From contig VMTE01000033.1 of NCBI GenBank assembly GCA_013791775.1, positions 1 through 60,561 on the forward strand: a stretch of 60,561 nt of DNA. The letters are read 5' to 3'. The DNA comes from Hyphomonas sp. GTDB taxonomy: Bacteria; Pseudomonadota; Alphaproteobacteria; Caulobacterales; Hyphomonadaceae. Within the stretch, counting starts at the first letter, position 1. The number at the start of each line of letters is the position of its first letter. A program made the translations under genes and the position numbers. Shown here piece after piece: positions 4,291-20,009 of this stretch. Under the pieces are notes generated by a model, which saw nothing but the letters and a program-made list of their open reading frames with translations, did no database searches and had not been told where the DNA came from.

Positions 4291-4947
4291 ATGTCTGACA
4301 TGCCTGCCGGATCCGGCGCACCCCATCCGGCGCGCCTGAGACAGCCGTCGGCCGAGGAGGTCCGCGCTGTTCCGGATCTCATAAATTCTCCGCCGGAAGC
4401 AGAGGCGGCCCTAAACGGGGCAAAAGCGCTCTCCCAGCTCTTCCGGTCCCAGTATGGTCAGCTTCTGAGATTCTGCCGTGTACGGATCAGGAGCGAGGCG
4501 GACGCAGAAGATATCGTGCAGACGGCCTTCCTGTCGGCGCGGCGCGCCTATCCCGACAAGGGCGTTGAGGAGCTCCGCCCACTGCTCTTCACCCTGGTGC
4601 GCAACCTCTCCCTCAACCATCTGAAGCTCTACTGGAACCAGATGCGTGACGGCGAGGACATCAGCGAGGCGGGAGCCGGCCTGGCCTGCCCGCATAGCCC
4701 GACACCGGAGAAGCAGCTTATGGACGCGCAGGACCTGGCGATCGTGGAGGCCTCACTGTCCGGAATGATCCCGCGCCGGCGCGAAGCGCTGAGGCTGCAC
4801 AGGATCGAGGGGCTGACCTATGCCGAAATCGCGAAACTCTTGTCTGTTTCTCCCACGACGGTCAAAAGTGATGTGGCGGAGGCGGTGGCGGAAGTTGCAG
4901 AAGACCTCGCGCGCGCCGGGCGCCGGACGGATGGCTCGGCTGAGTGA
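4291..4947 (+). CDS. ECF-type RNA polymerase sigma factor (FecI-like)
   Basis: A 218-residue sigma-70 family protein. Region 2 (about residues 45-110) includes the run from LFRSQYGQLLRFC to EDIVQTAFLSA. Region 4 (about 155-205) has the helix-turn-helix LTYAEIAKLLSVSPTTVKSDV. The stop overlaps the FecR gene (GTGA), followed by a TonB receptor with an STN domain, which is the standard iron-starvation/cell-surface-signalling order. It should direct polymerase to the receptor and isopeptidase promoters when the receptor binds its ligand. Sigma-FecR-receptor sets next to a lasso isopeptidase are known from proteobacterial lasso clusters, so the inferred ligand is the lasso peptide. Confidence 0.9.
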   Translation: MSDMPAGSGAPHPARLRQPSAEEVRAVPDLINSPPEAEAALNGAKALSQLFRSQYGQLLRFCRVRIRSEADAEDIVQTAFLSARRAYPDKGVEELRPLLFTLVRNLSLNHLKLYWNQMRDGEDISEAGAGLACPHSPTPEKQLMDAQDLAIVEASLSGMIPRRREALRLHRIEGLTYAEIAKLLSVSPTTVKSDVAEAVAEVAEDLARAGRRTDGSAE

Positions 4948-5924
4948 CAGGCAAGATGATGGTCCAGGGCGATCATGCAAGCCGGGTGAAAGCGGCTGCC
5001 CGCTGGTACGCAGAACTGCAGGCGCCGGAGGCGGGGGCTGAAACCTGGGACGCGTTCCGCGCCTGGGAGCGTCACCCGGCCAACGCCGCTGCCTTTCGCG
5101 AAATCGAGGCGGCGCTGAGCACGCTCGACCGGTCGTCATTGGCGGCACATGCGGCGGTGCGGGCCAGGCCGCCTCAGCGCGCACGCGTCTGGCTCGGCGC
5201 GGTCGCTGCGGCGGTGGTGATGGCCGCACTGGGCGCGGCGACGCTTTTTAGTGGACGCGCGGCGCAGCCGCCCGCCGACACGCTGCCCCTCGTCTATGCG
5301 ACATCGGTCGGCGAACAGCGCCTTCTCGAACTCGCGGACGGGTCATCGGTGCGGCTGAACACGGCAAGCCGGATAGAGGTGGCCTTTTCTGCCCAAGAGC
5401 GCCTTGTCCGGCTGACCGGCGGACAAGCCTTTTTCGAGGTCGAGCCGGACGCTGTTCCCTTTGTCGTCGATGCGGCGGCCTCCCGGACCCGCGCGCTTGG
5501 AACGGCCTTCGACGTGTTCGTCAAGGCGGAGGGCGCTCAGGTCACCCTTCTCGAAGGCTCGGTCAGCGTAGTGTCACCCGGGTCTGCGGCAGGGGAACTT
5601 ACTATGCTTGAACCCGGCGACCGGTTGGTGATCTCGGGCGGCAAGGCGCAGCCGGTAGTGCAAGTGGATCTCGCCGCGGCGCTATCCTGGCGCACCGGTA
5701 TCCTCCAGTTCGCCGATGTCCGCCTCGCCGACGCGGTCGACGAGCTGAACCGGTATTCTGGCACCAGGATCGTTGTCCAGGATCCTGCCCTAGCCGAAGA
5801 ACGCCTCAGCGGGTCGTTCAAGGCGGGCGACCAGGAGATGTTTGTCTCGGCGCTGTCCCTATTCCTCCCGGTCGAGGCCGAGCGCTCCGGCAATACGATC
5901 CAGATTGTCCTGGCCAGCGACTGA
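4944..5924 (+). CDS. FecR-type transmembrane anti-sigma factor/signal transducer
   Basis: A 326-residue FecR protein. Residues 1-75 are the cytoplasmic domain (DUF4880-like, with WDAFRAWERHPANAAAF) that would hold the sigma factor. A single membrane helix follows near 85-108 (WLGAVAAAVVMAALGAATLF). The periplasmic FecR domain spans about 120-230 (from TSVGEQRLLELADGSSVRLN) and a C-terminal DUF4974-like part contacts the receptor's STN domain. The start may be GTG 4944, overlapping the sigma gene by four bases, or ATG 4956. It relays occupancy of the outer-membrane receptor to the sigma factor, probably by regulated proteolysis as in Fec/Fox systems. Confidence 0.9.
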   Translation: MTGKMMVQGDHASRVKAAARWYAELQAPEAGAETWDAFRAWERHPANAAAFREIEAALSTLDRSSLAAHAAVRARPPQRARVWLGAVAAAVVMAALGAATLFSGRAAQPPADTLPLVYATSVGEQRLLELADGSSVRLNTASRIEVAFSAQERLVRLTGGQAFFEVEPDAVPFVVDAAASRTRALGTAFDVFVKAEGAQVTLLEGSVSVVSPGSAAGELTMLEPGDRLVISGGKAQPVVQVDLAAALSWRTGILQFADVRLADAVDELNRYSGTRIVVQDPALAEERLSGSFKAGDQEMFVSALSLFLPVEAERSGNTIQIVLASD

Positions 5925-6088: not shown

Positions 6089-8845
6089 ATGGGTCGGTCG
6101 AAAGATTTGAGACGCAGCCTGCTGGGCGCTGCCGCGCTGTCGGTATTTGTGGCCGGGCCGCTCGGGAGCGCACGCGCCGAGGCGCCGCGCGCCGCGGCGG
6201 CGGTAGAGGTCAGCATCGAGGCGTCCGCGCTCGGAGATGCCCTCCGGGCGTTCAGCGCGCAGGCCGGAATATCCGTGATTTTTTCGGAGCGCCAGGTCGC
6301 GGGCCGCGAGGCGGCTGCGCTGAAAGGCGCTTATACGCCGGACGCAGCGCTGCGCAGGTTGCTGGACGGGACGGGCCTGCAAGCCGTGCGGGGAGAGGGC
6401 GGGGCCTATGTACTGCGCGGGGCCGCGCCGGACGGCACACCCGGAGGCGGCGCCGGGGAGGATGAAAAGCCGGGCGCGCCCGCGCGTGTGCCGCAACCGG
6501 ATCCTGAAATTGCAGCAACGGAGCTGCGGGCCGAAACGGTAATTGTCACGGGCACGAGCCTGCGCGGGCTGGCGCCCGAGAGCTCGCCGCTGCAGGTCTT
6601 TACGCGTGAAGAGATCCTCGGGTCGGGCGTGACGACGACGGAACAGTTCATCCGTACACTGCCGCAGAACTTCGGAGGCGGATCGACGGAGTTCACGGCG
6701 GGCGGCCTGCCGAATGACATCAATTCAAGGCAAAACTTCACGTTCGGGACAGGCGCGAACCTGCGCGGTCTTGGTTCACGCGGGACGCTGGTCCTGCTTG
6801 ATGGCAACCGTCTCGCGCCGACCTCCGGGATCGGAGATTTTGTGGACCTGTCACTCATTCCGGTCTCGGCGCTCGATCGCGTCGATGTCCTCACCGACGG
6901 CGCGTCCTCGATCTATGGCGGGGACGCTGTCGCCGGCGTGATCAACTTCGTGCTGCGCGGCGACTATGAAGGTGCGGAGACGTCGCTCCGGTACGGGTCT
7001 GTCACGCAGGGCGACATGGACGAATACCGCCTCAGCCAGACGGTCGGCACCGCCTGGGAGGGCGGATCGGTGCTGGGCACTTACGAGTATTTCAACCGGG
7101 GCGCCCTGAGCCTTGCCGACCGCCCGTCCATTGCCGCGCCTGAACTGCTCAACGGCCAGGCGATTACAGCGATCGATGCGTTTGATCTCCAGCCGGAGCA
7201 GAAACGCCACAGCGCCGTCCTGTCACTCAGGCAGCAGCTGGGGACTCGCCTCAGCCTGCGCGGCACGGGATTTTACTCGAGGCGGACTGTCGACAGCTCG
7301 ACCGTACTCGCAAGCGTCGCGAGCACCATCACGCGGTCGGATACAAGTTCGGAAAACATCGCGCTCAATATCGCGGCCAGCTACGAGATCTCGCCCCAAT
7401 GGCAGGCGTCCGTCAGCGCGAACTTCAGTGAAGTGAGGAACAAGGAAGTCATCGGGAGCCTGGTGACGCCGCCTCGCGCGCCGAATGTGTCTGATTTCAA
7501 GTCCCGACTGCTGTCCCTCGACGCCCTGCTGAACGGCGATGTGATGTCTGTCCCGGGCGGCCAGGTTGTGGCCGCGATCGGCGCGCAGGTGCGCCGGGAG
7601 GAGTTCGATTTCCAGACGAGGGGGGCCGCCAAGCTGAGGGATGGCACGCGGGACGTGTCTGCGCTCTTTGGCGAAGTGCTGGTTCCTGTCATTGGCCCGG
7701 ACAACGCTTTTCCATGGGCAGAGCGACTGGAAGTCAACCTGTCGGGCCGCGTCGATGACTATTCGGACTTCGGGCGCTCTGCGAACCCCAAAATAGGCGT
7801 CCTCTGGTCCCCGGATGAGTCCCTGATGATCCGGGGGTCTTACAGCACGTCATTTGCGCCGCCGGCGTTGGGGCGCTCCGGAGCCATCGACCGTGCGGGG
7901 AGTGTGTTTCCCTATTCCTTCATCCTGAGCCGTCTGCGCTTTCCCCTGCCTGATCCGTCCCTTGCCGGCGTCGACTACCTCGTCACAGGCGGGACGCAAG
8001 CAAACCTCGAACCCGAGACATCGCGGGCATTCACGTTCGGATTCGATCAGGCGTTTTCCGTAGGTCGTCACAACTGGTCCGTGAACGGGACATTCTACGA
8101 CATCGCGTTTGAAGACCGGCTCGGCACGACGCCGCTCCCCCAGAACCTCAATTCCAACTTTGCCCCGAACATTGCGTTCAGCGATCCGGGCGCGTTGCCA
8201 CCCGGAACCGTGATCTTTTTCCCTACCCAGGACGAGATCAACGCCTTGCTGGCAACCTTTACCCAGCCCGTGGTTCTGGTGGCCGGAGGCAGGCTCAGCA
8301 ATATCGGGATCATCAACAATGCCAACGTGGTCCGCAACCTTGCGTCTACCGAGACCCAGGGCCTCGACCTCCAGGTCGGGTATGATGTGGACACGCCGCT
8401 CGGCGCCGTTTCGGCGAGCCTCAATGCCAATTACCTCTTTGGCTTTTCGGAGCAGGCCTCCGCCACCACGCCGGTAGTCGAGACTGTGAATTCCATGTTC
8501 AATCCTGTCGACCTCAAACTGAGGGGCCGGGTGGGGCTCAGCCGGGCAGGGTTCGCCGGCAGCCTCTTCGTGAACTACACGGACAGTTACAAGACGGATG
8601 GGACGGCGGCGGCCATTCCGATATCGTCCTGGACGACGGTTGATCTCTCGCTCGCCTATCAGTTCGATGACAGCCGGCACGGACCGTTCGAGGGCACGCG
8701 GATCGGTCTCTCGGTCACCAACCTCCTTGATGAGCCGCCGCCAGCAGCGCCCGCCAGCGGACTGTTCAGGATTGCCGGCTACGATCCGGCGAATGCCTCG
8801 CCGCTCGGCCGGTTTGTCGCCATCGAGATCAGCAAGTCGTTCTGA
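6089..8845 (+). CDS. TonB-dependent outer-membrane receptor with STN signalling domain
   Basis: A 918-residue receptor. A signal peptide ends near SARAEAPR. A secretin/TonB short N-terminal (STN) domain lies at about 35-105, containing SIEASALGDALRAFSAQAG. Next come a plug domain beginning near ETVIVTGTSLRG (probably containing the TonB box) and a 22-strand-type barrel ending in an aromatic residue (FVAIEISKSF). ATG 6089 is chosen over ATG 6002 because it has AGGGAAG just upstream and directly gives the signal peptide. The STN domain would touch FecR at 4944-5924. Placed directly before the isopeptidase, it probably imports the lasso peptide, as inferred for astexin-type clusters. A siderophore ligand is the alternative. 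Confidence 0.9.
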   Translation: MGRSKDLRRSLLGAAALSVFVAGPLGSARAEAPRAAAAVEVSIEASALGDALRAFSAQAGISVIFSERQVAGREAAALKGAYTPDAALRRLLDGTGLQAVRGEGGAYVLRGAAPDGTPGGGAGEDEKPGAPARVPQPDPEIAATELRAETVIVTGTSLRGLAPESSPLQVFTREEILGSGVTTTEQFIRTLPQNFGGGSTEFTAGGLPNDINSRQNFTFGTGANLRGLGSRGTLVLLDGNRLAPTSGIGDFVDLSLIPVSALDRVDVLTDGASSIYGGDAVAGVINFVLRGDYEGAETSLRYGSVTQGDMDEYRLSQTVGTAWEGGSVLGTYEYFNRGALSLADRPSIAAPELLNGQAITAIDAFDLQPEQKRHSAVLSLRQQLGTRLSLRGTGFYSRRTVDSSTVLASVASTITRSDTSSENIALNIAASYEISPQWQASVSANFSEVRNKEVIGSLVTPPRAPNVSDFKSRLLSLDALLNGDVMSVPGGQVVAAIGAQVRREEFDFQTRGAAKLRDGTRDVSALFGEVLVPVIGPDNAFPWAERLEVNLSGRVDDYSDFGRSANPKIGVLWSPDESLMIRGSYSTSFAPPALGRSGAIDRAGSVFPYSFILSRLRFPLPDPSLAGVDYLVTGGTQANLEPETSRAFTFGFDQAFSVGRHNWSVNGTFYDIAFEDRLGTTPLPQNLNSNFAPNIAFSDPGALPPGTVIFFPTQDEINALLATFTQPVVLVAGGRLSNIGIINNANVVRNLASTETQGLDLQVGYDVDTPLGAVSASLNANYLFGFSEQASATTPVVETVNSMFNPVDLKLRGRVGLSRAGFAGSLFVNYTDSYKTDGTAAAIPISSWTTVDLSLAYQFDDSRHGPFEGTRIGLSVTNLLDEPPPAAPASGLFRIAGYDPANASPLGRFVAIEISKSF

Positions 8846-8889
8846 CACACCCCCCCCCTCAGTCCACGGAAAAAAAAGGAGTTCGCACG

Positions 8890-11439
8890 ATGCGTGCTGC
8901 AACGGGCTTTCGGCGGCTGCGGGTAGTTATTGCGGTTCTTGTGGCCGGGTTCTTTCCTGGCGGCTGCGCGCTCGCAGACGGGCGTCCGCTGACCGTGGAC
9001 GATATGATGAAGGTGGGGGGATTTGGTTCAGCCGCCGTTGACCCGGAAGGACGCTGGGCCGTCTATGAGAAGCTGCGCCCCTACGAGGAGGCGCGCGATT
9101 TCAGCTTCCGGACTTATGCCTTTGCCAAGTCCGGTCACCAGCTCTGGCGCGTCGATCTGCAGGCGGGAACACCGCCCGAGCGCTTGCCCGGGATCGATCC
9201 GGAACCGCATTCGTATGTTCTGGATTTCTCAGCGTCCGGACGGTTCCTCGCCGTAATGCAATACAGCTTCGGCGAGGTCCGTGTCGGCGCCTATGACATG
9301 GAGGCGGATGAGGCCGCGTACTTTGCGCCTGCGCCCGCGTTCAGCCGGACCGGGGACCACAACCCGGTCTGGGTTTCAGAGACGGAACTCGTCTATGCGG
9401 CGGTGCCGGATGGCGAGTTCCCGTTGGCGACAAGTATTCGCGCCGTAACGGGCAGGGCGCTAGGCCAGCTCTGGGAAGAGGCATGGAGCGGGCAGCGCGT
9501 CACGGCGACAGAGGCCCGCGCCACGGTAACCGATCAGTCGGATGAACAGGAGGCAGGATCCCTTGTCCGCGCCCATGCCGCGTCCGGGAAGACAGAGGTT
9601 CTTGCCGAAGGGCTCTTTGCCGACCTCCGGGTGTCGGCGGACGGGCGCCGTCTTGCCGCGATGGCGGTGTCGAAGCCGCGTCCCACGGATGCGGCCGAGC
9701 GCGTCACCTATGACGCGCGCCGGTACCGTCTCATGGTCTTCGACCTTGAGGCCGGGACCAGGAAAACCTTGGCCCCGGGCCTCGAGTTCTTCCCTTACAC
9801 CCTCGCCTGGGCACCGGACGGACGCCGCCTCGCCGCGTTCGGCTGGGCAAGCGATGAAAGCCCGGCGCGGGGCCGGTTCCATGTCGTGGACACCGTCACC
9901 GGCGAAGTCACCCCGTACCAGCATGACGGCCTCGACCTTGCGTCCGAACGCGAGCGCGGCTGGCTGCAACGGCCGGAGCGCGTGATGTTCCTCGCTGACG
10001 CGCTCGTTGTCTTTGCCCGGAATATTCCGCCGGAGGAGGCCCAGTCGCCGCGCTTCTCGGCGCAGGACATGAACGATCCGTCGCTTCCCGATGCGCACTG
10101 GTATGCGCTCTGGCCGGATGGACGCTCCCTGAACCTGACGTCCGGCCTTGCGGGCGTCTCAGGGGTGCCGGTCCAGGCCGGGGAAGGGCACGTGACAGTG
10201 TCTGCGCGTGACGGAGTTTACCGCATCCATCCCGGCGGCCGGCGCGAGCGCCTGACGCCCGGGTCTGCGACCGAGGTGCGCCTCGCGTCGCCCGGGACAT
10301 TTGCCACACGTAGCGGCGTCGCACGCCCTGAGTTCCGCGGTGAAGCGTTACTCACTCTCAAGGTGGAAGGTCGGCCAAAGGTCATGATGCTGGACTTGCA
10401 GGCGGGCCGCGAGGACGCTGCTGCGGTGAGTGCCAGCTCGGGACCCGGCGCTGTTCCGGTGGTGGGCGCGCGGGCTACAGGAACATTTCTCATTCGCGCC
10501 GATGAGGGGCCAGCCACCAGGCTCCTGTCTGCAGGGCGGGGAACGACGGCGGAGGTGGACCGCGTGAACACCCACCTCGAGGACGTGCAGTTCGGCACAT
10601 GGCAGTCATTTTCCTACACGGTCTCAGACCCTGGAGGCCTGCTTGACCCGCAGGTCCTGGAAAGCTGCGTCCTCCTTCCGCCCGGTTATTCGCAAGGACG
10701 CCCGCTACCGCTGATCGTCGATGTCTATCCCAACATTGCCTCCGGATGCGGCGAGCGTGGTGCCGGGATCAGCTATCCGGACCCTCATTCTCCGCAGCTA
10801 TGGGCCGGAAAGGGTTTTGCCTACGTGAAGCTTGCCGCGCCGCGGGACCTGATCCGGACCCCAGAAGGCCCGATCGCCGGACTGGACGAGGTCACCGCCG
10901 CAGGGGTCCAGGAACTCGTAAAGATGGGGCTTGCCGATCCGGATCGCCTGATCCTTCACGGCTATAGTCAGGGAGGCGTTTCAGCGCTCTATGTTGCGGC
11001 AACCTCTGACCTCTATGCGGCGGTCATTGCCAAGAACGGTTGGGCAGACCTGTTCAGCCATTATTTTGGCCCAGGCGGTGTATTCTCCATCCTGTATCCT
11101 GAGTTCCTCGGAGCCGAGTCCGGGCGTTACGACGCGGTCATCGGCACCGATTTCGGGATCGGGCGCACGCCGTTCGAGGCGCCGGAAACCTTCTATGAGA
11201 ATAGTCCCGTGTTCCTTGCCCCCAGGATCAACATCCCGGTCTTGCTCATGCATTCCGACATGGACATCTTTTCGATGTCCCAGTTCGACGAGATGTTCGG
11301 CGCCCTGAAGCGCGCCGGAAGGGATGCCCGTTACGTGCGCTACTGGGGCGAAGGTCATGGCCCGTCCAGTCCGGCAAACATCCGGGACATGTGGCAGAGG
11401 ACCGACGCGTTCCTCGCCGAACATGATCTGGATCCGTGA
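8890..11439 (+). CDS. Lasso peptide isopeptidase (AtxE-like, S9 prolyl oligopeptidase family)
   Basis: An 849-residue S9-family serine peptidase with an export signal (the hydrophobic run RVVIAVLVAGFFPGG, then CALADG). An N-terminal beta-propeller occupies roughly residues 35-560 and a C-terminal alpha/beta hydrolase the rest. The catalytic residues visible are Ser693 in HGYSQGG, Asp792 in MHSDMDIF and His823 in GEGHG. Lasso isopeptidases of this family cut the macrolactam bond and linearise the cognate peptide. AAGGAG stands 8 bases before the ATG. It follows the receptor by 44 bases and its stop lies 6 bases from the stop of the convergent cyclase gene. A general oligopeptidase is possible from sequence alone, but the cluster context makes isopeptidase by far the best reading. 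Confidence 0.88.
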   Translation: MRAATGFRRLRVVIAVLVAGFFPGGCALADGRPLTVDDMMKVGGFGSAAVDPEGRWAVYEKLRPYEEARDFSFRTYAFAKSGHQLWRVDLQAGTPPERLPGIDPEPHSYVLDFSASGRFLAVMQYSFGEVRVGAYDMEADEAAYFAPAPAFSRTGDHNPVWVSETELVYAAVPDGEFPLATSIRAVTGRALGQLWEEAWSGQRVTATEARATVTDQSDEQEAGSLVRAHAASGKTEVLAEGLFADLRVSADGRRLAAMAVSKPRPTDAAERVTYDARRYRLMVFDLEAGTRKTLAPGLEFFPYTLAWAPDGRRLAAFGWASDESPARGRFHVVDTVTGEVTPYQHDGLDLASERERGWLQRPERVMFLADALVVFARNIPPEEAQSPRFSAQDMNDPSLPDAHWYALWPDGRSLNLTSGLAGVSGVPVQAGEGHVTVSARDGVYRIHPGGRRERLTPGSATEVRLASPGTFATRSGVARPEFRGEALLTLKVEGRPKVMMLDLQAGREDAAAVSASSGPGAVPVVGARATGTFLIRADEGPATRLLSAGRGTTAEVDRVNTHLEDVQFGTWQSFSYTVSDPGGLLDPQVLESCVLLPPGYSQGRPLPLIVDVYPNIASGCGERGAGISYPDPHSPQLWAGKGFAYVKLAAPRDLIRTPEGPIAGLDEVTAAGVQELVKMGLADPDRLILHGYSQGGVSALYVAATSDLYAAVIAKNGWADLFSHYFGPGGVFSILYPEFLGAESGRYDAVIGTDFGIGRTPFEAPETFYENSPVFLAPRINIPVLLMHSDMDIFSMSQFDEMFGALKRAGRDARYVRYWGEGHGPSSPANIRDMWQRTDAFLAEHDLDP

Positions 11440-11445
11440 CCATCT

Positions 11446-13266
11446 TTACGGACGCTTGCGACTGTCCGGCCTGGCCTCCTTTTTCCAGCGCCTCAGCCAC
11501 GCCTCTGCTACGTAGGTCACAAGGAGGCGGCTTCCATGGGCATCAATCTTGTGGCCATCGCGGGTGAGCAGCCGAGCGAACTCCCGTTCGTCAGCGAGCG
11601 AAGCTTCGACGAGAGCCCCTCCGGTCAGTGCGTCTTCGAGACGCGCGCGGTTGGTTGAAATGAGCTCAGAAAAGTAGCCGGACGCGTGACCCTTTATCAT
11701 CCGCTGACGGATGGACTCCGGTATATCGCCTTCAAAGGCGAGCCGGGCAAGCCCGCGGCTGACGCCGCCGGCGGCCAGCGTGTAGACGGGCAGCTTGAGG
11801 CAGAGCTCGACAAGCGGCTGCGAGATCAAGGGGTGGATGATGTCTGTCGCGGCCGACCTCACCATGGGCTCGCGGAGCTGGAACATGTGGACGAGCCGGC
11901 TGGTCTGGTCGAACTTTCCTTTCGGCAATCCCTCCGGGAATGCCGCCCAGTCCGGAATCCAGTCGCGGGATGAAAGCGTCTCGGCTTCGCTTGCCGGGAC
12001 TTTCTTGCCGATGGCCGCCAGCATCGCGCTTTGCCGGCGCGGCGGGCCAGCGTGCGCCTTGAGCACGTCCCAGACAGACAGGCCCGAAAGGCGCGCTGAA
12101 TAGGCCAGTTCATGGAAGAGGCGGGGATGGAGGCCCCGGTCATTGAGGAAGTCCGAGAAGCCATCCGGGCTGTGGGTGTGAAGGAAGAGGTGGTCTCCGC
12201 CCTGTCCTGTGAAAAGCGCAGGCGGCGAGGGGAGGTTGCCAATGAGTGCCTCGAGGCCGGGATCGAGGAACGGGCGCAGCGGGCGCACCGAAAGGGGGTG
12301 CGCGTCCGGATCAGGCAGCTGCCGGCGCGCAGGTATTTCCACTTCGACGAACGTGCATCCGGCGGACCGGGCAGCTTCGGCCGCGTACGCCGTTTCTGGC
12401 GGGTCGTCGGAACCCAGCCGCTGATGTACGGCAGTTAAGTCTTCGCCGCGCCCTGCAGCCGCGAGGCAGGCCAGCACGATTGACGAATCCAGTCCGCCGG
12501 AGAGGCTGAGCATGATTGCGTCCTGCGGCGCGCTCCAGGCCGTGACAACGTGCTGGACCATCTGCTTCAGCAGGCGCGCAGCTTCAGGCAAAGCCATGTC
12601 CAAGCGGCTTGCCGCGACGCGCCGGGGATCCCATGCCTGCTCCGTCTTACGGATCGCCGGACCAACAACCAGCCTCTCGCCGGGCAGGAGTTCGCGGATT
12701 TCGTTCAGTCCGGTTTCCCCGTTCTGGACGCGGTCATAGACAAGCAGGCGGGACAGGAAGGCGTAGTTTACCGTGAACGTGGAGCGGTCCAGGAAGTCGC
12801 ACAGTTCCAGATGCGAAAAGACGAGCGTGAGACCGGAGTAGGATGTGTAGTAGCAGGGGATGCTGGCGGCCGGATCCGCCAGAACCAGCCAGTCCTCGCC
12901 AGAGCGTATGAAAGCGACATAGCTTCCCCAGAAACCGTCCAGGAGCGTGCGTCCGCGTGTGCGAGAGATCTCTTCGCCTTCATCCCTTGAAAGACTAGCA
13001 ACGAGGCTCGCCTCGCGCCCGGGATCCGTCGCCCGGAACAGGCGCCCGAACACGGCGCCGCTTGCGCCGCCGCGCCTTGTCGGGAGATGCGTGATCTCGC
13101 CCGATTGCTCGCCAGCCGAGAGACTGAGGAGGAAAAAGCCGCTGCTTTCGAGTTGCGGGCGTGACGGGCGGGCGGACTGGCCCAGGGAGCGGATTATGTC
13201 GCGCGCAGCGTGTTCTGCGGCGGCGTTGCCCGGATTCCATGTCATGGCAAAAAAGGAGCGGATCAT
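11446..13266 (-). CDS. Lasso peptide macrolactam synthetase (asparagine synthetase-like, C protein)
   Basis: A 606-residue asparagine synthetase B homologue. The N-terminal glutaminase-like half lacks the catalytic Cys2. The ATP pyrophosphatase domain shows SLSGGLDSS (SGGLDSS at 256-262). In lasso systems (McjC) this enzyme adenylates the ring Glu/Asp side chain and closes the amide with the core's N-terminal amine. The start ATG 13266 has AGGT upstream and follows the B stop by 11 bases. An in-frame extension back to 13359 would overlap B extensively and was not used. It is the last gene of an A-B-C operon, whereas most proteobacterial clusters read A-C-B. Confidence 0.92.
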   Translation of the reverse strand: MIRSFFAMTWNPGNAAAEHAARDIIRSLGQSARPSRPQLESSGFFLLSLSAGEQSGEITHLPTRRGGASGAVFGRLFRATDPGREASLVASLSRDEGEEISRTRGRTLLDGFWGSYVAFIRSGEDWLVLADPAASIPCYYTSYSGLTLVFSHLELCDFLDRSTFTVNYAFLSRLLVYDRVQNGETGLNEIRELLPGERLVVGPAIRKTEQAWDPRRVAASRLDMALPEAARLLKQMVQHVVTAWSAPQDAIMLSLSGGLDSSIVLACLAAAGRGEDLTAVHQRLGSDDPPETAYAAEAARSAGCTFVEVEIPARRQLPDPDAHPLSVRPLRPFLDPGLEALIGNLPSPPALFTGQGGDHLFLHTHSPDGFSDFLNDRGLHPRLFHELAYSARLSGLSVWDVLKAHAGPPRRQSAMLAAIGKKVPASEAETLSSRDWIPDWAAFPEGLPKGKFDQTSRLVHMFQLREPMVRSAATDIIHPLISQPLVELCLKLPVYTLAAGGVSRGLARLAFEGDIPESIRQRMIKGHASGYFSELISTNRARLEDALTGGALVEASLADEREFARLLTRDGHKIDAHGSRLLVTYVAEAWLRRWKKEARPDSRKRP

Positions 13267-13277
13267 GCGCGATACCT

Positions 13278-14003
13278 CTAAACGGCGAGGATGGGCGTGA
13301 AGCTTGCCGCGCTTTCGAGATGGTCGTTGAGGACAATCCCCCTGTATTGAATCCAGCAATGCGCCAGGAACGGTGAGAGGCGCACACCGAACACGAGGTC
13401 GGGGGCGGCGCCTCGAAGCGTGAGGTAGCGAAGTAGCAGCAGGCTACGAAACAGGCAGGCGTCCTGAGCCGAAAAGAACAACGGAGACGCGGCGTGGAAC
13501 TGGCGTGCAAGTTCTGCGACCCGCTCGGGCGGCGCGGGCCGGCGGCCTTCCATTTGTCCTTTCCAGCGTCCCACGGCTGCAAGGCACGCAGCGATGTGCG
13601 GGCGGCGTTGGAGCGCGGCGCAGTAAGCCAAAGACTGGAGCAGGCGGAACATGCCCGGAAGCGTTGCGTTGCGCCGGGCTGCGGAAGGCGGCTCGAGCAC
13701 TGAGCCCGTTGGAGGACATTTGCGAAAAGGCGCTATCGGCTTGCCGTCGCCGCGGCCAGGCACGAGAATCCCCTTACTTGCCAGGATGCCGGCAAACTTG
13801 CGGGCTTCAGCCGAAATCTCGTGACCTGATGCTGCCCCGCGAACCTGCCGGAACCAGTCGGCCTGTTGTCCGCAGATCAGAAGGTAGCGATCAGACTTGA
13901 TGTCGAGGAAGATACAGGCGGCAGGCAATTCGCAATACGCCGCGTCGCGGCTGAGGGCGTAGTCATTGAAGGGGGCCGGCTCGGCAGACGCTATCGCTTG
14001 CAT
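13278..14003 (-). CDS. Lasso peptide leader peptidase with fused recognition element (B protein)
   Basis: A 241-residue McjB-like protein. Residues about 22-85 form a PqqD-like RiPP recognition element (LPAACIFLDIKSDRYLLI) that binds the leader. Residues about 115-241 are the transglutaminase-like cysteine protease with Cys183 (DACLFRSL), His215 (LAHCWIQ) and Asp227 (VLNDH) as the triad. It removes the leader so that the core's Gly1 amine is free for cyclisation. ATG 14003 was chosen because AGGAG lies 10 bases upstream and it falls after the hairpin at 14038-14060; a GTG at 14048 inside the hairpin is less likely. One fused B protein is the proteobacterial form, unlike the split B1/B2 of Gram-positives. 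Confidence 0.92.
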   Translation of the reverse strand: MQAIASAEPAPFNDYALSRDAAYCELPAACIFLDIKSDRYLLICGQQADWFRQVRGAASGHEISAEARKFAGILASKGILVPGRGDGKPIAPFRKCPPTGSVLEPPSAARRNATLPGMFRLLQSLAYCAALQRRPHIAACLAAVGRWKGQMEGRRPAPPERVAELARQFHAASPLFFSAQDACLFRSLLLLRYLTLRGAAPDLVFGVRLSPFLAHCWIQYRGIVLNDHLESAASFTPILAV

Positions 14004-14037
14004 GGTGTCCGGGCTCCTGAAGGCTGGGACCAGGAAA

Positions 14038-14060
14038 TGAAGGGGCACGCGGCCCCTTCA
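14038..14060 (-). terminator. Attenuator hairpin between lasso precursor and processing genes
   Basis: A perfect 9-base-pair stem, TGAAGGGGC against GCCCCTTCA, with a 5-base loop lies 11 bases after the precursor stop and 34 bases before the B start. On the minus strand it is followed by TTTCC, a weak U-tract. Hairpins at this point are known in lasso operons and let precursor mRNA exceed enzyme mRNA. Complete termination is unlikely because no separate promoter for B was seen. Confidence 0.75.
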
Positions 14061-14071
14061 TCCCTGTGCGG

Positions 14072-14209
14072 TCAGTCGCGGCTTACGGGGCTGCCGAGAT
14101 TGAACTCGTTGCTTTCACCGATCTGGCCGCGGGTCTCCTCCGACACCGATCCGAGGTCGATGGGCGCGAATTCGTCCGTGCCGAGATGGTCTTCGTTCTG
14201 GGTATTCAT
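14072..14209 (-). CDS. Lasso peptide precursor (A protein)
   Basis: A 45-residue precursor. ATG 14209 is favoured because AGGAG ends 7 bases upstream; the ATG at 14215 is too close to it. The leader is residues 1-27 and carries the recognition region APIDLGSVSEETR, including the hallmark Thr at position -2 before the core. The core (28-45) reads GQIGESNEFNLGSPVSRD: Gly1 as the ring amine, Glu8 as the ring acid (an 8-residue macrolactam), and a 10-residue loop/tail ending Ser-Arg-Asp. My hand-calculated monoisotopic mass for the cyclised core is 1886.88 Da. Adjacent B and C genes make the assignment secure. The core sequence is not one I recognise. Confidence 0.93.
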   Translation of the reverse strand: MNTQNEDHLGTDEFAPIDLGSVSEETRGQIGESNEFNLGSPVSRD

Positions 14210-14280
14210 GGTCATTCTCCTGTTGGGTTTGGGGGGGTGTCGCTGGCCGGGCGACAAGTGGAGAGTGAGCGCAACCTTAG

Positions 14281-14332
14281 ATAGAGTCAAGAATGAGATT
14301 GTTAAAAAAAGTATATATTACAACATAGTACA
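14281..14332 (-). promoter_or_regulatory. AT-rich promoter-like segment upstream of the lasso precursor
   Basis: A strikingly AT-rich stretch (14298-14331, including TTAAAAAAAGTATATATTAC) in otherwise GC-rich DNA lies 72-123 bases upstream of the precursor start. It fits a strong promoter or UP element for the A-B-C operon. I could not pair convincing -35 and -10 hexamers at 16-18 base spacing. Confidence 0.4.
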
Positions 14333-14401
14333 CAAGCGCCTTCGCGTCGGCGCAGATCGCCGGCGGGGTTTCGGTCCGGAGTGTGACTTCCAGCACTGCC
14401 G

Positions 14402-15817
14402 TCAGACCATTCCGGGACCCTCCGCGGTCTGAGTATTCAGATTCACGTCGCCTGGGAGCGGTGGCAAGGCAAAGCTGATGGGGGACTGCCGGACCAGCGC
14501 GCGGGCTTTTTCGGTATCGCCGGCCATCAGAGCATTTGCCGCCCGCGCGGCGGCATAGTAGGCCCGCGTGAAGTCATCGGTCTTGTAGAGGGCAGGCGAA
14601 CTGATCGCCGATGCAAATCCCTTGTCCGGCGTCCGCCAACTGGGTCCGTAGGTTTCGGAAAGGTAGCGTTCCCGATCATCCGGAACGCTCCAGGCCTCGC
14701 CCTGATAGGTCTGGCTGACGAGCCCGAACGCGCTGAAGCGCCACTGGATATCTCCTTTGAGATCTCCGAGGCCGCAGACCAGCGCGCCGTCCCGGGCATC
14801 GTGCAGGAAGATATCGATCGCGGTGCCCTGAAACACGGTCCCGAAATACCGCTCGCCCGGCCGGGCGGCGCGGGGACAGATCAGGCCCGGGTGCGTGCGC
14901 AGGAGGCCGGCGATATCAGGTGATCCGTCTGCAGCGCGCAGGACGCCGATATCAATGTCCCGGTCATGCGGAAGCGGTCTGCCATTGCGGTGGAAGCCGA
15001 GCAGTGTGCCTGCCGCCAGGAAATGGACGATGCCCTGCGCGCGGAGGATTTCGCTGAATGCGCGCAAAGCGCGCGCAGCGTCGCCTGGATCGAAAGCGCT
15101 TGGGCGGAATGTCTGCGGCAGACCGCGCGTTTCCAGATGGGCGAGCGCCAGCGCCTTGTGCCGGAAAGCCGCACGGAAGGCGCCGATATTGTAGTGCGCG
15201 CGCGCTTCAGCATTGTGAGCGGCCGCGAGGTCTCGAAACCGGGCGCGGTGTGTTTCAGCGAAATGGACCGCATCCTCAAATCGGTGGGCGTCGACAAGGG
15301 CGCGGCTGCACCGGTCGAAGAGCGAAGCGGGCGCCCGGTCTTCCAGGCAAAGCCGCTCGAGGACATCAGCCGCGCTGCGAACCGCGAACACGCGCTCTGG
15401 TTCGTCCGGCGCGGTGTCAGCCATCGACTGCCAGGTCTTCCAGGCCTTTGGGTCGCTTGCGGCCGCGTTTCGGAACGCGCCCATGGCGGCGCTGACATCG
15501 CCGAGGGCATGAAGGGCGAGGCCGCGTCCATGCAGGCAGTCAGTGTTGTTCGCGGCGAGCTTCAATGCCGCGTCAAAAACGGCCAGCGCGCGGGCAGGTG
15601 CGCCTGATCTCAGGAGGACGGCGCCCAGATCGTGCAGTGCCGGGACATGGCCCGGGCGAAGCTCAAGCGCCCGCGCAAACATCGCGGCAGCTTCGGCCGG
15701 CTTTCCCGATCTCGCAAGCTCGGATCCGGCGCGCATGCAGTCCGGCCAGGTCCGCGCCGCGCCGGAAGGCGCGTCAACAGGGGACGCCTTATCGATGTTC
15801 GCCTTCTGGAAAATCAT
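14402..15817 (-). CDS. TPR protein with C-terminal LicD-like nucleotidyltransferase-fold domain
   Basis: A 471-residue protein starting at ATG 15817, where AGGAGG stands 7 bases upstream; the extension to 15940 was rejected. Residues about 25-225 are tetratricopeptide-like helices (for example PAEAAAMFARALELRPGHVP). Residues about 250-420 match the LicD/fukutin type: FLAAGTLLGFHRNGR, then HDRDIDIG at 284-291 with the metal-binding Asp pattern. LicD proteins transfer phosphocholine or other phospho-groups. The gene lies 192 bases upstream of the lasso precursor on the same strand, so it may be co-regulated. Tailoring of the peptide (it has three Ser residues) is an attractive but unproven role; surface-glycan modification is the alternative. 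Confidence 0.7.
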   Translation of the reverse strand: MIFQKANIDKASPVDAPSGAARTWPDCMRAGSELARSGKPAEAAAMFARALELRPGHVPALHDLGAVLLRSGAPARALAVFDAALKLAANNTDCLHGRGLALHALGDVSAAMGAFRNAAASDPKAWKTWQSMADTAPDEPERVFAVRSAADVLERLCLEDRAPASLFDRCSRALVDAHRFEDAVHFAETHRARFRDLAAAHNAEARAHYNIGAFRAAFRHKALALAHLETRGLPQTFRPSAFDPGDAARALRAFSEILRAQGIVHFLAAGTLLGFHRNGRPLPHDRDIDIGVLRAADGSPDIAGLLRTHPGLICPRAARPGERYFGTVFQGTAIDIFLHDARDGALVCGLGDLKGDIQWRFSAFGLVSQTYQGEAWSVPDDRERYLSETYGPSWRTPDKGFASAISSPALYKTDDFTRAYYAAARAANALMAGDTEKARALVRQSPISFALPPLPGDVNLNTQTAEGPGMV

Positions 15818-16102
15818 TCGGGCTCCTCCTGATATTTCCGCCACGTGGCCTTGGTTGAGAGCGCCTGCAGCCCACTCCTGGCATATGTGCAGCAGGCGTT
15901 CCTGCGAGGCATTCCGTGGGTCATCGCCGAGCAGGGACACCCGGCGCCGTCTCGATTGCCGTTGGGGCGGATCCGATTGGACTAAACCATAAAATAGAAT
16001 TCACTACAATCTAAAGATGTATTCTGTGGCTGCCGATCGGGGCTCTGCCCGGCCGGCAGGTCAGGTGCCCCTCCGTCATTCTAGACGGGTGACATTTTGC
16101 GC

Positions 16103-16119
16103 CCTACGATTGTTGTAGG
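16103..16119. promoter_or_regulatory. Inverted repeat upstream of the XRE regulator
   Basis: CCTAC (16103-16107) and GTAGG (16115-16119) flank GATTGTT, 38 bases before the XRE start. Its arm CTACAACAA resembles CTACAATCT at 16004-16012 and TTACAACAT at 14321-14329 upstream of the lasso precursor. It may be an autoregulatory operator shared with the lasso promoter. Confidence 0.35.
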
Positions 16120-16156
16120 TTGCACGTGGGGGGCGCGTAGCAACTGGGAGGGAACC

Positions 16157-16555
16157 ATGAAGAAGTCCGGAACAGAGGGCGGGAAGCCGCGCTCGCCAAA
16201 GGATGTGGACCGGCTGGTCGGCGAAAATGTCCGCAGGCTGCGTATCCAGAGGAACCAGACCTTGTCTCGGCTGGCGTCCGAGCTCGGCATCAGTCACCAG
16301 CAACTGCAAAAATATGAGACAGGCGCGAACCGGCTCAGCGCGGGTACGCTTTTCGATGTCGCCGCAGCGCTCGGTATATCGATAGAACTCCTGTTCCGCT
16401 CGGAAGGCGCCGAGACGAAGAAGCCGGCCAGCGTCAAGGCGACCGCGATGGACGCGCTCCGAACGGAAGGCAGCTACTGGCTTGGGCGGGCCCGGTCAGA
16501 GCAGACGCTTCGCCAGATGGTCGAGGTGCTCAAGGCCCTTTCATCGGACAGATGA
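16157..16555 (+). CDS. XRE-family helix-turn-helix regulator
   Basis: A 132-residue DNA-binding protein. ATG 16157 follows GGGAGG at a good spacing; an upstream in-frame start lacks a ribosome site. The HTH (about residues 20-75) reads from LVGENVRRLRIQRNQTLSRLASELG through the recognition helix ISHQQLQKYETGANRLS, as in small alphaproteobacterial Cro/CI-like regulators. The C-terminal 50 residues are helical and charged (RSEQTLRQMVEVLKAL), probably for dimerisation. It is transcribed divergently from the TPR-LicD gene and points towards luxR-luxI, so it is a plausible regulator of either set. No ligand domain is evident. Confidence 0.85.
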   Translation: MKKSGTEGGKPRSPKDVDRLVGENVRRLRIQRNQTLSRLASELGISHQQLQKYETGANRLSAGTLFDVAAALGISIELLFRSEGAETKKPASVKATAMDALRTEGSYWLGRARSEQTLRQMVEVLKALSSDR

Positions 16556-16747
16556 AGCCGCCCCTGGGGCGAAACGTCTTGCCGCTTGCTCACACACGAC
16601 GCCCGTACTTTTTTGGGCGATTGGCCGGTCGGAGCACGGCCCGCCTACTCAGCCATGTGGATTTGCAGGGCTAATATTCGGGTCGCAATTCATTCTTGCA
16701 AAGATTGAACGCTGGTTCTATTATTGAGCGCATCGCGGAGCAGTCTC

Positions 16748-17476
16748 ATGCATGACTATGATGGATCGACCGTCCTCGAAGCGATCCGGACGATTCAGTC
16801 GGCGAACACGCCGGAGGCAACCGTCTCTGCCCTGTCGATCTTCATCGAGCGCTACGGGTTTGAGCGCATCTTCCTTGGCCAGCTTGTCAATCCGGCGAAC
16901 GTCCCCCTGAAAAATATCCTGTACCTCTCGGACTGGCCCGAGGAACTCAAAACTCATCGCCGCAATCAGATGGCTATTCTGCATGATCCGGTTGCGATCT
17001 GCGCGCTTCGCTCAAAGCGCCCGTTCACCTGGGCAGAGGCACGCGCCCATGCCACACGGCTGGGCCGGATGGTCGTGGACATGGTGCACGATTTTGGGAT
17101 TACCGACGGCATGATGTTTCCGATGCATGCCCTGCAAAGTGTGTCAGGCGGCGTATCACTGGGCGCCCGCCAGAAAACGGACCTCACAGCGACGCAGGTC
17201 AAGGAACTCGAGATCGTCTGCCAGACCGCCTACTACCATCTTGAAGTCATGCTCGGCCCGTTCCCCTACCAGAAGCTCGCCGAACTCACCCGGCGCGAGA
17301 CCGAATGCGTCCAGTTCGCGGCCGCAGGCAAGTCGAACTGGGAGATCGCCCGCATTCTCGGGATCGAGGCGGACACGGTCAAGAAAACGATGATCCGGGC
17401 GGGCGGCAAGCTAGAGGCCGGAAACCGGGCGCACATCGTCGCGACCGCAATCGCAAAGAACCAGATCTTCCCCTGA
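16748..17476 (+). CDS. LuxR-family quorum-sensing regulator
   Basis: A 242-residue protein. The N-terminal autoinducer-binding domain (about 15-165) keeps the aromatic acyl-HSL pocket residues seen in LYLSDWPEEL and the region after DMVHDFGITDGMMFP. The C-terminal LuxR HTH (about 178-240) begins LTRRETECVQFAAAGKSNWEIA. ATG 16748 was chosen with CGGAG 7 bases upstream; a TTG at 16724 is possible. The synthase luxI follows after 75 bases, so this is a cognate pair. Targets may include the neighbouring lasso operon, but no canonical lux box was identified. Confidence 0.88.
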   Translation: MHDYDGSTVLEAIRTIQSANTPEATVSALSIFIERYGFERIFLGQLVNPANVPLKNILYLSDWPEELKTHRRNQMAILHDPVAICALRSKRPFTWAEARAHATRLGRMVVDMVHDFGITDGMMFPMHALQSVSGGVSLGARQKTDLTATQVKELEIVCQTAYYHLEVMLGPFPYQKLAELTRRETECVQFAAAGKSNWEIARILGIEADTVKKTMIRAGGKLEAGNRAHIVATAIAKNQIFP

Positions 17477-17479
17477 CAA

Positions 17480-17535
17480 GTCCCCGAATGGGGACATTAC
17501 GCGGCGCGCCATTGCTTGCAGGATTTGCCTGTCAA
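17480..17535. promoter_or_regulatory. luxR-luxI intergenic hairpin and imperfect inverted repeat
   Basis: GTCCCC-GAAT-GGGGAC (17480-17495) forms a 6-pair hairpin directly after the luxR stop but has no U-tract. TTGCAGG-ATTTG-CCTGTCAA (17516-17535) is an imperfect inverted repeat 17 bases before the luxI start. The second is roughly lux-box sized but lies too near the ribosome binding site for normal activation. Confidence 0.3.
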
Positions 17536-17551
17536 CAGAGGAGGCAAGCCC

Positions 17552-18202
17552 ATGTTCAAGGTCATCACTCCAGCAAATCGCCGCGCGTACCGCAGTCTGC
17601 TCGATGATATGCACGAGATGCGCTACCGGGTCGTCGTGTGCGAATGGGGCTGGGACATACCGGGTGTGATCGTCGGCTACGAGGCCGACCAGTTTGACAC
17701 GGACGAAACGACTTACGTCATTGTCCAGAATGATGCCGGGGAAGTGGTGGCGTCCTCGCGCCTCAATCCGACCACGCGCCCGCACATGATGAGCGAGCTC
17801 TTTGCGGCGCATTGCGACCTGCAACCCTGGCCTGTCGGAAGCGATGTCTGGGAATGCTCCCGGTTCGTGACAGAACGCTCGAAGCTGACCGATCCTGTCG
17901 AGGATTTCCGCGTACGGTGCCGGCTGGGGATCGGGCTGACCGCCCACTGCATCGACAAAGGCGTCACGCGTCTCAGCTGGCTGACGCACCAGAAGTTCTA
18001 CAATCTCGTCCAGAAGGTCTGGAAGACCGAGCCGCTCGGCCTGCCGCGGCGCGATGACGGGGACTGGGCGTGGATCCCTGCGATGTCCTGGATCGATCTG
18101 GAGACGCTTGACCGGCAACTCGACCGATACCGCAACGCAGAGGCTATCGTTGCGGCCTACATGGCGCCGAAGCTGGCGGCGAAAGCTGGGAGGGTCGCTT
18201 AA
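17552..18202 (+). CDS. Acyl-homoserine lactone synthase (LuxI family)
   Basis: A 216-residue LuxI-type synthase making an AHL from S-adenosylmethionine and an acyl donor. ATG 17552 has GAGGAGG 7 bases upstream. Family positions can be seen: MRYRVVVCEWGWDI (Arg and Trp of the N-terminal motif), acidic residues in YEADQFDTDE, Arg70 in VASSRLNPT, and VWECSRFVTER (Glu101, Arg104) in the core. The stop overlaps the next gene's start (TAATG), so a dioxygenase is translationally coupled. Acyl-chain length cannot be predicted reliably from sequence. Confidence 0.92.
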   Translation: MFKVITPANRRAYRSLLDDMHEMRYRVVVCEWGWDIPGVIVGYEADQFDTDETTYVIVQNDAGEVVASSRLNPTTRPHMMSELFAAHCDLQPWPVGSDVWECSRFVTERSKLTDPVEDFRVRCRLGIGLTAHCIDKGVTRLSWLTHQKFYNLVQKVWKTEPLGLPRRDDGDWAWIPAMSWIDLETLDRQLDRYRNAEAIVAAYMAPKLAAKAGRVA

Positions 18203-19191
18203 TGGGAAACCTCGAGCATATGTTGTCGCCGCGCGACTGCCGGGCCTTTGACGAAGACGGCGCGGTCTGCCTGCGCGGGGTCCTGACACCGGGTGAGATC
18301 GAGCACCTGCGCCGCGCAGTGGACCGCCAGATGGCTGAGCTGCACACCTCCCGGACAGGATACGATTTCGAAGCGCTTGCCCGCCAGGTCTGGGACGCGG
18401 AAAGCGCCGTCGATACCGGCGCAGCTGACCGGTTTGACATGGCGCGGTTGAAGGAGACGGTGCGCGCGGACGCGTCGGCGCGGCCGCTGCTTGAAGAAGA
18501 GACGGGCGGAAGAGGCGGCATGTTCTTCTATGATGTTGCCGCGTGGAAGCACGACCTGGGTGTCCGGGAAGTCGCCTTTGACTCGGCGCTTCCTGAAATC
18601 GTCAGCCGGCTGATGGGCGCAGCCTATGTGAACTTCTGGGAAGACACGACGTTTGTGAAAGCGCCGCATACGCGCCAGAAGACCGCGTTCCATCAGGACC
18701 TTGCCTATTTCCAGATTCAGGGTGACCAATGTGTCATTGTCTGGATTCCGCTCGACCCGGCGGATCTGGGAAACGGTGTTCTACAGTATGTGCGCGGATC
18801 CCATCGTTGGGGAGAGATCTACGCCCCGAATGTGTTCGTCTCGCAGACGCCGATTGCGTCTTCGCCTGAAAAACGCTGCCCGGATATCGAAGGCGCCCCC
18901 GATGACTACGACATCATCACATTCGATGTTGAGCCAGGCGATGTGATCATCCACCACGTGAAGACCGTGCACGGCGCAGGCGGGAATACGTCAGACCGAT
19001 GGCGGCGGGCGGTGTCGTTCCGGTATTGCGGAGACCAGGTGAGATATCTCGGCCGAAAGGGCGCAATTGCCCAGGTCGGTGTGACGCATGGGCTCAGGGA
19101 TGGCGACAGGCTGTTTGCAGCTGATTATCCGGTCGTCTGGCCGAAGCCTTGGCCGGAGATGCGCCTGGCACGTCAGTATGGGGCCGGATAA
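18202..19191 (+). CDS. Phytanoyl-CoA dioxygenase family (PhyH-like) Fe(II)/2-oxoglutarate oxygenase
   Basis: A 329-residue PhyH-type protein. The double-stranded beta-helix iron ligands are visible as His and Asp in TAFHQDLAYF and the distal His in KTVHGAGGN, followed by the 2-oxoglutarate-binding Arg in RWRRAVSFRY. The gene overlaps luxI by one base. PhyH-like genes linked to luxI occur, as I recall, in some other alphaproteobacteria. The simplest inference is that it hydroxylates the acyl donor or the finished AHL. The substrate is not determinable here. Confidence 0.85.
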   Translation: MGNLEHMLSPRDCRAFDEDGAVCLRGVLTPGEIEHLRRAVDRQMAELHTSRTGYDFEALARQVWDAESAVDTGAADRFDMARLKETVRADASARPLLEEETGGRGGMFFYDVAAWKHDLGVREVAFDSALPEIVSRLMGAAYVNFWEDTTFVKAPHTRQKTAFHQDLAYFQIQGDQCVIVWIPLDPADLGNGVLQYVRGSHRWGEIYAPNVFVSQTPIASSPEKRCPDIEGAPDDYDIITFDVEPGDVIIHHVKTVHGAGGNTSDRWRRAVSFRYCGDQVRYLGRKGAIAQVGVTHGLRDGDRLFAADYPVVWPKPWPEMRLARQYGAG

Positions 19192-19495
19192 TTGGGGAGG
19201 CGGACGCCTGGCCCGAGATGGTGCCGATCACGAACGCAGAATTGAGGGGCATGGAACGCCACTTCGCCGAAGTTCTGGATGAGCTTTTCGGGCCTCGGGC
19301 CTGATGGGCCGCAGAAACTCGAAGAAAATTCAAGTTGAGACGCCACTGGATATTGGGGGTGTTTGAAGCACATACCCTCCTTACTCAGCTGAGTTGGAAT
19401 GCCCGTATCACTTGGGCTGGGAATGCCAACTGCAGGGCTTGGGAGGAGGCGGTTGGCCAGCCTGAAAGCCTGCATGGCTTTAATCGGCTCGCAGG
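19192..19495. other. No recognisable gene
   Basis: Only a short 28-codon frame (from about 19218 to the TGA at 19301-19303) stands out and matches nothing I recognise. The interval separates the quorum-sensing unit from an IS3 remnant and is probably insertion scar. Confidence 0.4.
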
Positions 19496-19849
19496 TTATT
19501 GGAGTAAGATTCTACATTCATTAACAGCGTTCCGGCGCCATTCAGGGAAGCAGGATGGCAGCAGGCCTGCCTTGCCGAGTGCTCCGGACAAAAAATCATT
19601 CTCCAGTGCCAGCTGGCCGATTTTGGCATGAAGCTCCTTCAGATCGACAGCAGGGGCTTCTTCTTTCGACGCGTCGCCGAAGACACCTGTCGCCCCTTCC
19701 AAGAGCTGGTCTTTCCGCTGCTTGATCTGGTTCGGGTGAACATCAAACTGCTGCGCAAGCTCGGCGAGGGTCTGTTCACCGCGGACCGCGGCGAGGGCCA
19801 CCTTCGCTTTGAAAGCCGGACTGTGATTCCGGCGGGGTCGTCTGGGCAT
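19496..19849 (-). pseudogene. IS3-family transposase OrfA, truncated; OrfB missing
   Basis: The first ~95 residues are a good IS3 OrfA: an HTH region (MPRRPRRNHSPAFKAKVALA, then LAELAQQFDVHPNQIKQRK) and the leucine-zipper stretch IGQLALENDFLSGALGKAGL. The usual continuation into OrfB is replaced from about 19560 by unrelated sequence that ends at a stop at 19496. No DDE domain is present nearby, so this is a dead remnant. Confidence 0.8.
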
Positions 19850-20009
19850 GGGTCGTCTCCTGTGCTCGGCAAAATAGCCGATCTGCAGGCAGAAATCTCA
19901 CCCAACCTCGCTGTTCAGATTTCCCGAGCCACCTCTCTATAGTCCTTGTGATGGTGAAGCTTGAGTCTACTTCAATATCGGCATTCGGTTCAGCAAAGTA
20001 ATTGAAGCG

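Follow-up and report, generated by a model that had tools for sequence, protein, structure and literature searches.

Isopeptidase-type lasso peptide clusters are common in the order Caulobacterales, and the purpose of their peptides is termed enigmatic in the available excerpts of PMC9266682; the same excerpts describe a TonB receptor, a sigma/anti-sigma pair and a prolyl-oligopeptidase-like gene in these clusters and place a GntR gene before the precursor gene A. Here we describe a related locus in a stretch of 60,561 nucleotides from Hyphomonas sp. (contig VMTE01000033.1; the whole stretch is referred to as the window), in which gene A very likely encodes a new lasso peptide and is directly preceded by a gene for a protein joining tetratricopeptide repeats (TPR) to a LicD/FKRP-like transferase domain. 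The locus resembles the subterisin/benenodin-type lasso peptides of Alphaproteobacteria in leader type, Thr at leader position -2, Gly1 and Glu8 of the core and a convergent hydrolase-TonB-FecR-sigma block, and the benenodin-family cluster on plasmid p1 of Caulobacter sp. FWC26 shows the same layout. It differs from this type in having the TPR-LicD gene instead of a GntR gene before A, and in a peptide tail where Ser/Thr is followed by Arg/Lys. The genes at the centre of the locus are the following:

11446..13266, minus strand: gene C, Asn-synthetase-like macrolactam synthetase (PF00733 69 bits, cut-off 21), found beside the LicD gene in 30/35 LicD loci
13278..14048, minus strand: gene B, leader peptidase with an N-terminal extension (NF033537 66.6 bits, cut-off 33; PF13471 63.5 bits, cut-off 26)
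14072..14209, minus strand: lasso precursor gene A, leader MNTQNEDHLGTDEFAPIDLGSVSEETR, core GQIGESNEFNLGSPVSRD (open reading frame with ribosome-binding site; Pfam Subterisin; relatives supply 26 further distinct cores with this type of leader)
14402..15940, minus strand: TPR and LicD/FKRP-like transferase, directly upstream of A, proposed tail-decorating enzyme (LicD 26.8 bits, cut-off 22.6; active-site motif; FKRP similarity)

Gene A starts with ATG at 14209 and ends with TGA at 14074-14072; its product has 45 residues, and a ribosome-binding site, AGGAGA, lies 6 nt upstream of the ATG. The initial annotation had pointed out this 45-residue frame with its own ribosome site and core, and all three are as it described; its position is also correct, while the minus strand had gone unstated. 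The leader ends in ...SEETR, with the Thr at position -2 that had been noted, and the core has Gly1 and Glu8, in keeping with the lasso pattern of Gly, Ala, Ser or Cys in first position and Asp or Glu at 7-9. Genes B and C follow downstream of A on the same strand, and the claim that their proteins adjoin the frame is borne out by the scores given above. The product reaches 27.4 bits (E 3.3e-6) with the Pfam model PF24178 Subterisin, marginally over the gathering score of 27, which is attained by 4/9 related precursors scanned; with the NCBIfam benenodin model NF033522 it scores 27.1 bits, below the cut-off of 33. The model matched by B, NF033537, is lasso_biosyn_B2; the listed start of B is GTG, with ATG at 14003 as a possible alternative, and its N-terminal part, matched by no model, is probably a fused leader-binding part. 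Gene C starts with ATG at 13266, inside a longer frame with a TTG start at 13359, and its product stays below the cut-offs of the lasso-specific NCBIfam cyclase models (73.5 vs 300 and 38.1 vs 525).

The core had been reported as unrecognised. Indeed, the core and leader strings do not occur in the literature searched, subscription papers and RiPP (ribosomally synthesized and post-translationally modified peptide) databases being outside its scope; the peptide is nevertheless a member of a family in Caulobacterales and no isolated oddity, and would be new by its core. No match was obtained in PDB with the precursor, C or B, nor in PHROGs, and a plasmid search with the precursor gave a single weak match (E 0.1), a benenodin-family gene. 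Recomputation of the core masses gives 1904.886 Da for the linear peptide and 1886.876 Da after loss of water, in agreement with the hand-calculated 1904.89 and 1886.88 Da. The arithmetic thus stands; the adjacent TPR-LicD gene had not been reported, and since its product may decorate the tail, the mature peptide may have a mass other than 1886.88 Da.

Precursor-like matches at E<=0.1 were found in 22/105 genomes of the family and B matches in 24/105, including 20 of the 22 precursor-positive genomes; the two without B (G042, G080) have the weakest matches and look like chance. From 34 loci of the LicD type, window included, 27 distinct cores were collected (7 repeats), after exclusion of chance frames picked up by the core pattern (3 kinds of row, plus 2 kinds in L107-L110). 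Locus L112 and the cut locus L085 yielded no core, and in L077, which has A, the contig begins just before it, so that the LicD gene is out of view. The leader end LGSVSEETR and its variants are conserved among these relatives, while ring and loop residues vary widely. Gly1 and Glu8 are invariant (27/27), Asp or Glu is also present at position 7 in 5/27 cores and at position 9 in none. Since Thr at -2 and a small first residue were demanded by the search pattern, neither counts as independent evidence; residue 8 was left free for 25 of the 27 cores, and the Gly1-Glu8 ring is therefore the best reading, which gives good support to the lasso assignment with an 8-residue ring made earlier.

The tails of the same cores share a second feature: Ser or Thr followed by Arg or Lys, with the hydroxyl residue 4 to 8 residues past Glu8, is present in 27/27, whereas shuffled tails contain the motif in 5.4 of 27 on average and in 13 at most. 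In the window core it corresponds to Ser16 beside Arg17. Clusters of the same order without LicD carry it in 2/21 distinct cores in a first control set (32 loci examined, 16 of which gave 24 rows) and in 0/14 in a second one (20 loci examined, 11 of which gave 15 rows; 9/11 with a TonB-receptor match nearby). One core is common to both sets. The control rows, of which some may be spurious, were selected by patterns that required Gly, Ala, Ser or Asn first, a ribosome site and Asp or Glu at 7-9. No LicD match was detected in the stretches covered for the control loci, which in the first set extend only 1.5 kb past the B match. The motif is also absent from all 3 cores of Caulobacter sp. FWC26.

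Two genomes of another family may have a damaged lasso cluster in which A and TPR-LicD are nevertheless retained: in L106 (10419-10766) and in L113 (1012-1359, on a contig of 4.3 kb) the B match spans only query residues 46-159, and no C match is present in the stretch covered.

The TPR-LicD protein has the active-site motif GT-LG-R...D-D-D-G...D-F, invariant in 35/35, with the DxD aspartates at D328 and D330, together with a predicted nucleotidyltransferase-type fold. Full-length profile and fold searches were swamped by TPR proteins, and for this reason the LicD part was used alone as query; FKRP, a ribitol-5-phosphate transferase, proved closest to it both by profile and by fold prediction. 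The resemblance to the FKRP/LicD family lies in motif and predicted fold; the differences are the TPR superhelix that precedes the domain and the proposed substrate, a ribosomal peptide. In every locus with readable order the gene is upstream of A, on the A-B-C strand, and within Caulobacterales no TPR-LicD was found away from lasso genes. A class-wide sample of 385 genomes, in which few candidates per genome were scored, contained it only in its own genome (1/385). The literature searched for LicD or fukutin together with lasso peptides held nothing relevant, and no such tail decoration is described there for lasso peptides, so that the cluster appears new also by its dedicated transferase.

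On the other side of C, four genes of the plus strand form one row, 4291-11439, running towards it:

4291..4947, plus strand: extracytoplasmic function (ECF) sigma factor, FecI-like (Sigma70_r4_2 48.7 bits, Sigma70_r2 34.1 bits)
4944..5924, plus strand: FecR-type anti-sigma factor (PF04773 69.3 bits, cut-off 24)
6089..8845, plus strand: TonB-dependent receptor with N-terminal STN signalling domain (TonB barrel 99.5 bits, Plug 52.7, STN 48)
8890..11439, plus strand: S9-family hydrolase convergent with C, in the isopeptidase position, divergent subfamily (PF00326 57.5 bits, cut-off 22.6)

This row supplies the TonB receptor, sigma/anti-sigma pair and prolyl-oligopeptidase-like gene of isopeptidase-type clusters as given in the excerpts of PMC9266682; no GntR-like regulator precedes A, where the window has genes for TPR-LicD and for XRE, LuxR, LuxI and PhyH proteins. 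Unlike the FWC26 isopeptidase (583.2 bits), the window hydrolase remains far under the equivalog cut-off of the AtxE2-family isopeptidase model NF033523 (36.7 vs 400, hydrolase part only), and it has 25% identity across the hydrolase part to an AtxE2-family protein. The hydrolases of L059 (12240-14822) and L107 (12234-14732) score 43 and 41.9 with the same model; the three proteins scanned (window, L059, L107) have 849, 861 and 833 residues, and a relative of the window hydrolase is present in the stretch covered of 27/35 LicD loci. The S9 hydrolases of LicD-type clusters possibly represent a separate isopeptidase subfamily.

Based on these data, the following pathway can be proposed. B would cut the leader off after Arg27 and C would link the amine of Gly1 to the side chain of Glu8, so that a tail of 10 residues is threaded through a ring of 8; this maturation, with its predicted macrolactam closure, follows the established mechanism of the family and is almost certainly what B and C do. 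The TPR superhelix would then bind the peptide for transfer by the LicD domain: a donor in activated form, probably a nucleotide-linked compound, would supply a phospho-linked group, and the acceptor would be the hydroxyl of the Ser/Thr that is invariant in the tail (Ser16 in the window core), a step for which we consider the chances evenly balanced. For the convergent sigma/anti-sigma pair, TonB receptor and S9 hydrolase, the probable role is uptake of the peptide back into the cell and its linearisation, which has been proposed for isopeptidase-type clusters. Taken as a whole, lasso maturation, tail decoration by TPR-LicD and re-import with linearisation form the explanation that we favour by a little more than an even call.

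Several observations weigh against the decoration step. The window protein matches the LicD profile with a modest score and over the active-site end only, and no dedicated synthase for CDP-glycerol (cytidine diphosphate glycerol; TagD, TIGR01518) exceeds the cut-off in any of 42 genus genomes, 17 of which have matches below it and the window's own genome none. A plasmid search with TPR-LicD returned 6 distant records of about 32% identity, and in the 3 of these 6 that were opened the LicD proteins, which belong to another order, adjoin capsule or flagellin genes and no lasso genes. Locus L112 has LicD and yielded no precursor, and on contig 14 of G027 the LicD and B matches each read across a stop. 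In addition, a single clade (99/95) unites 28 B proteins of LicD-type clusters in a tree of 65 rows, built from 30 proteins labelled as LicD-type (L077 in; L080, L106, L109 and L113 out) and 35 others, in which the distant pair L111/L112 is placed with uncertainty; the motif-LicD link is therefore one evolutionary association, not 27, and it could reflect shared ancestry. In the same tree, rows L117 and L053 show an identical B protein in Brevundimonas nasdae and in another family of the order, which places the window in Caulobacterales, the order of Brevundimonas.

On plasmid pOA238_118 of Octadecabacter arcticus 238 (L164, 4757-6711), one of these distant LicD-domain proteins, of 515 residues, adjoins a cytidylyltransferase and flagellin, suggesting a possible phospho-alcohol modification of flagellin, and on a Paracoccus plasmid a distant relative has tagD and capsule genes at most 6 kb away. 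Both fit CDP-linked chemistry for the wider LicD family, but not a lasso role.

Among the alternatives, the one that survives best, which we hold to be a real possibility though the less probable one, is that the lasso peptide remains undecorated, with a mass of 1886.88 Da, that TPR-LicD acts otherwise, for example by modifying the envelope or the receptor for self-protection, and that the Ser/Thr-Arg/Lys pair is a structural plug. Arg can serve as steric lock of lasso peptides, and Ser-Arg could simply be such a plug; the pair occurs also in a small number of known lasso peptides, among them caulonodin I and astexin-1, and alone it proves nothing. The association of distant LicD relatives with capsule genes agrees with this alternative, and A, B and C typically suffice for lasso formation, according to the accessible part of PMC12670498; steric locks are characterised as bulky, mostly aromatic residues in that of PMC13352647. 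However, an invariant hydroxyl residue is unnecessary for a plug, and the position of TPR-LicD upstream of A at every locus with readable order, together with the failure to find it away from lasso genes in the order, also weighs against this alternative.

The second alternative concerns regulation. Upstream of TPR-LicD and divergent from it lie the following genes:

16157..16555, plus strand: XRE-type regulator (HTH_3 43.1 bits), with a relative in the covered stretch of 18/35 LicD loci
16724..17476, plus strand: LuxR-type regulator (Autoind_bind 71.6 bits, GerE 46.5 bits)
17480-17495: perfect palindrome GTCCCCGAATGGGGAC, between the luxR stop and the luxI start, pattern GTCCCC-N4-GGGGAC
17516..18202, plus strand: LuxI-type acyl-homoserine-lactone synthase (Autoind_synth 71.8 bits)
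18202..19191, plus strand: PhyH-type dioxygenase (PF05721 112.9 bits, cut-off 22)

The lasso cluster could be a direct target of the LuxR-LuxI pair, which we regard as unlikely. The three genes from LuxR to PhyH (16724-19191) recur at 18 other LicD loci, e.g. L056, L072 and L073, and so stand beside 19/35; LuxI with at least 58% identity is present in 16/18 LicD/lasso genomes vs 0/24 other genomes of the genus. That these are ordinary core genes of the genus is ruled out by the lack of any LuxI match (E<=1e-20) in the 24 genus genomes without LicD and lasso genes. Conversely, a strict tie between LuxI and lasso genes is contradicted by an extra copy apart from lasso genes in G055 (L083), by the lasso genomes G037 and G070 of the genus, which have no LuxI, and by weaker LuxI matches (33-39%) in other genera (three genomes); the Lux genes are absent from the 11 LicD loci located outside the genus. 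The palindrome, exact in 12/20 luxI copies and degenerate in the others, is a probable lux box, but it occurs before luxI only, as the single exact site in the window, and direct Lux control of the lasso genes is unsupported for this reason. A shared lux-type box was also sought: the best scores before A (14 loci), FecI (4) and XRE (11) are not above those of one shuffle per sequence, and before TPR-LicD (19 loci) only L065 exceeds it, 15/21 vs 13. A LuxR-LuxI pair with phyH is already known from Novosphingobium (available excerpts of PMC3704786). In the present cassette, PhyH might act on the signal by hydroxylating its acyl chain.

A third alternative, which appears distinctly improbable, is that TPR-LicD nucleotidylates or phosphorylates the peptide or the precursor leader for purposes of control or immunity, with no group of the phospho-alditol or phosphocholine type. 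By the description in the excerpts of PMC9266682, the pseudomycoidin cluster has in common with the window a nucleotidyltransferase-type enzyme (PsmN) in a lasso cluster, reported to act on a tail Ser; it differs in being from Bacillus, in the kinase (PsmK) that acts first and in its C-terminal Ser target, while the window has a TPR and LicD protein, no kinase among the proteins scanned and a Ser followed by Arg. The absence of a kinase among the nine neighbouring proteins scanned and the first rank of FKRP by profile and fold argue against this alternative. A further lasso cluster, biosynthetic gene cluster (BGC) 38 from a soil metagenome, is similar, by its description in the available part of PMC12670498, in that a gene for a TPR protein was cloned together with genes A to D; it differs in its ABC transporter gene D, and LicD is named nowhere in the main text of that paper.

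The messenger RNA of A has a further conserved element:

14210..14260, minus strand: 5' leader of the A messenger RNA, with a covarying 6-bp hairpin TGTCGC...GCGACA ahead of the ribosome-binding site (25-sequence covariation)

Among the 25 sequences, 94.7% of 150 cells are paired and 5/6 pairs show changes on both sides; shuffles reached equally high values in 0/500 cases for four of five measures and in 5/500 for the fifth. The stability of the single-sequence fold is unremarkable (z -0.75), and no Rfam family exceeds its gathering score over window positions 3500-20000. A -35-like TTGACTC precedes the hairpin in 19/25 loci (window region 14210-14340, minus strand). In LicD-free clusters the region before A folds into hairpins too, so the element is not tied to LicD. 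The last alternative, that the frame of A arose by chance or is a decayed lasso gene without product, could be suggested by the Subterisin score, barely over the cut-off (27.4 vs 27), but is made very remote by the intact ribosome site, the conserved leader, invariant Gly1 and Glu8, intact B and C and the covarying hairpin.

At the edges of the cluster, 235-933 (minus strand) and 1650-2174 (plus strand) encode similar protein fragments in opposite orientation, with the common stretch HRKDYY.ELELAS..NADRW..WFADIALEAQDRS, possibly a duplicated and broken gene. Just past phyH, the frame at 19496-19849 (minus strand) resembles what we take to be a transposase helix-turn-helix subunit and may indicate mobile-element activity.

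A dedicated transferase together with an invariant tail residue leads to a concrete prediction of the mature molecule, in mass and in site, and a decorated peptide could escape a search made only for the plain mass. We tentatively suggest, with slightly less than even confidence, that a branch of Caulobacterales lasso peptides is decorated at the invariant tail Ser/Thr by its own TPR-LicD/FKRP-like transferase, with alditol phosphate, phosphocholine or a nucleotide. If true, this would be a new tailoring reaction for RiPP chemistry and a tool for placing phospho-linked groups on stable peptides, and an architecture like that of OGT (O-linked N-acetylglucosamine transferase), with TPR and transferase combined, would be found acting on a small knotted peptide.
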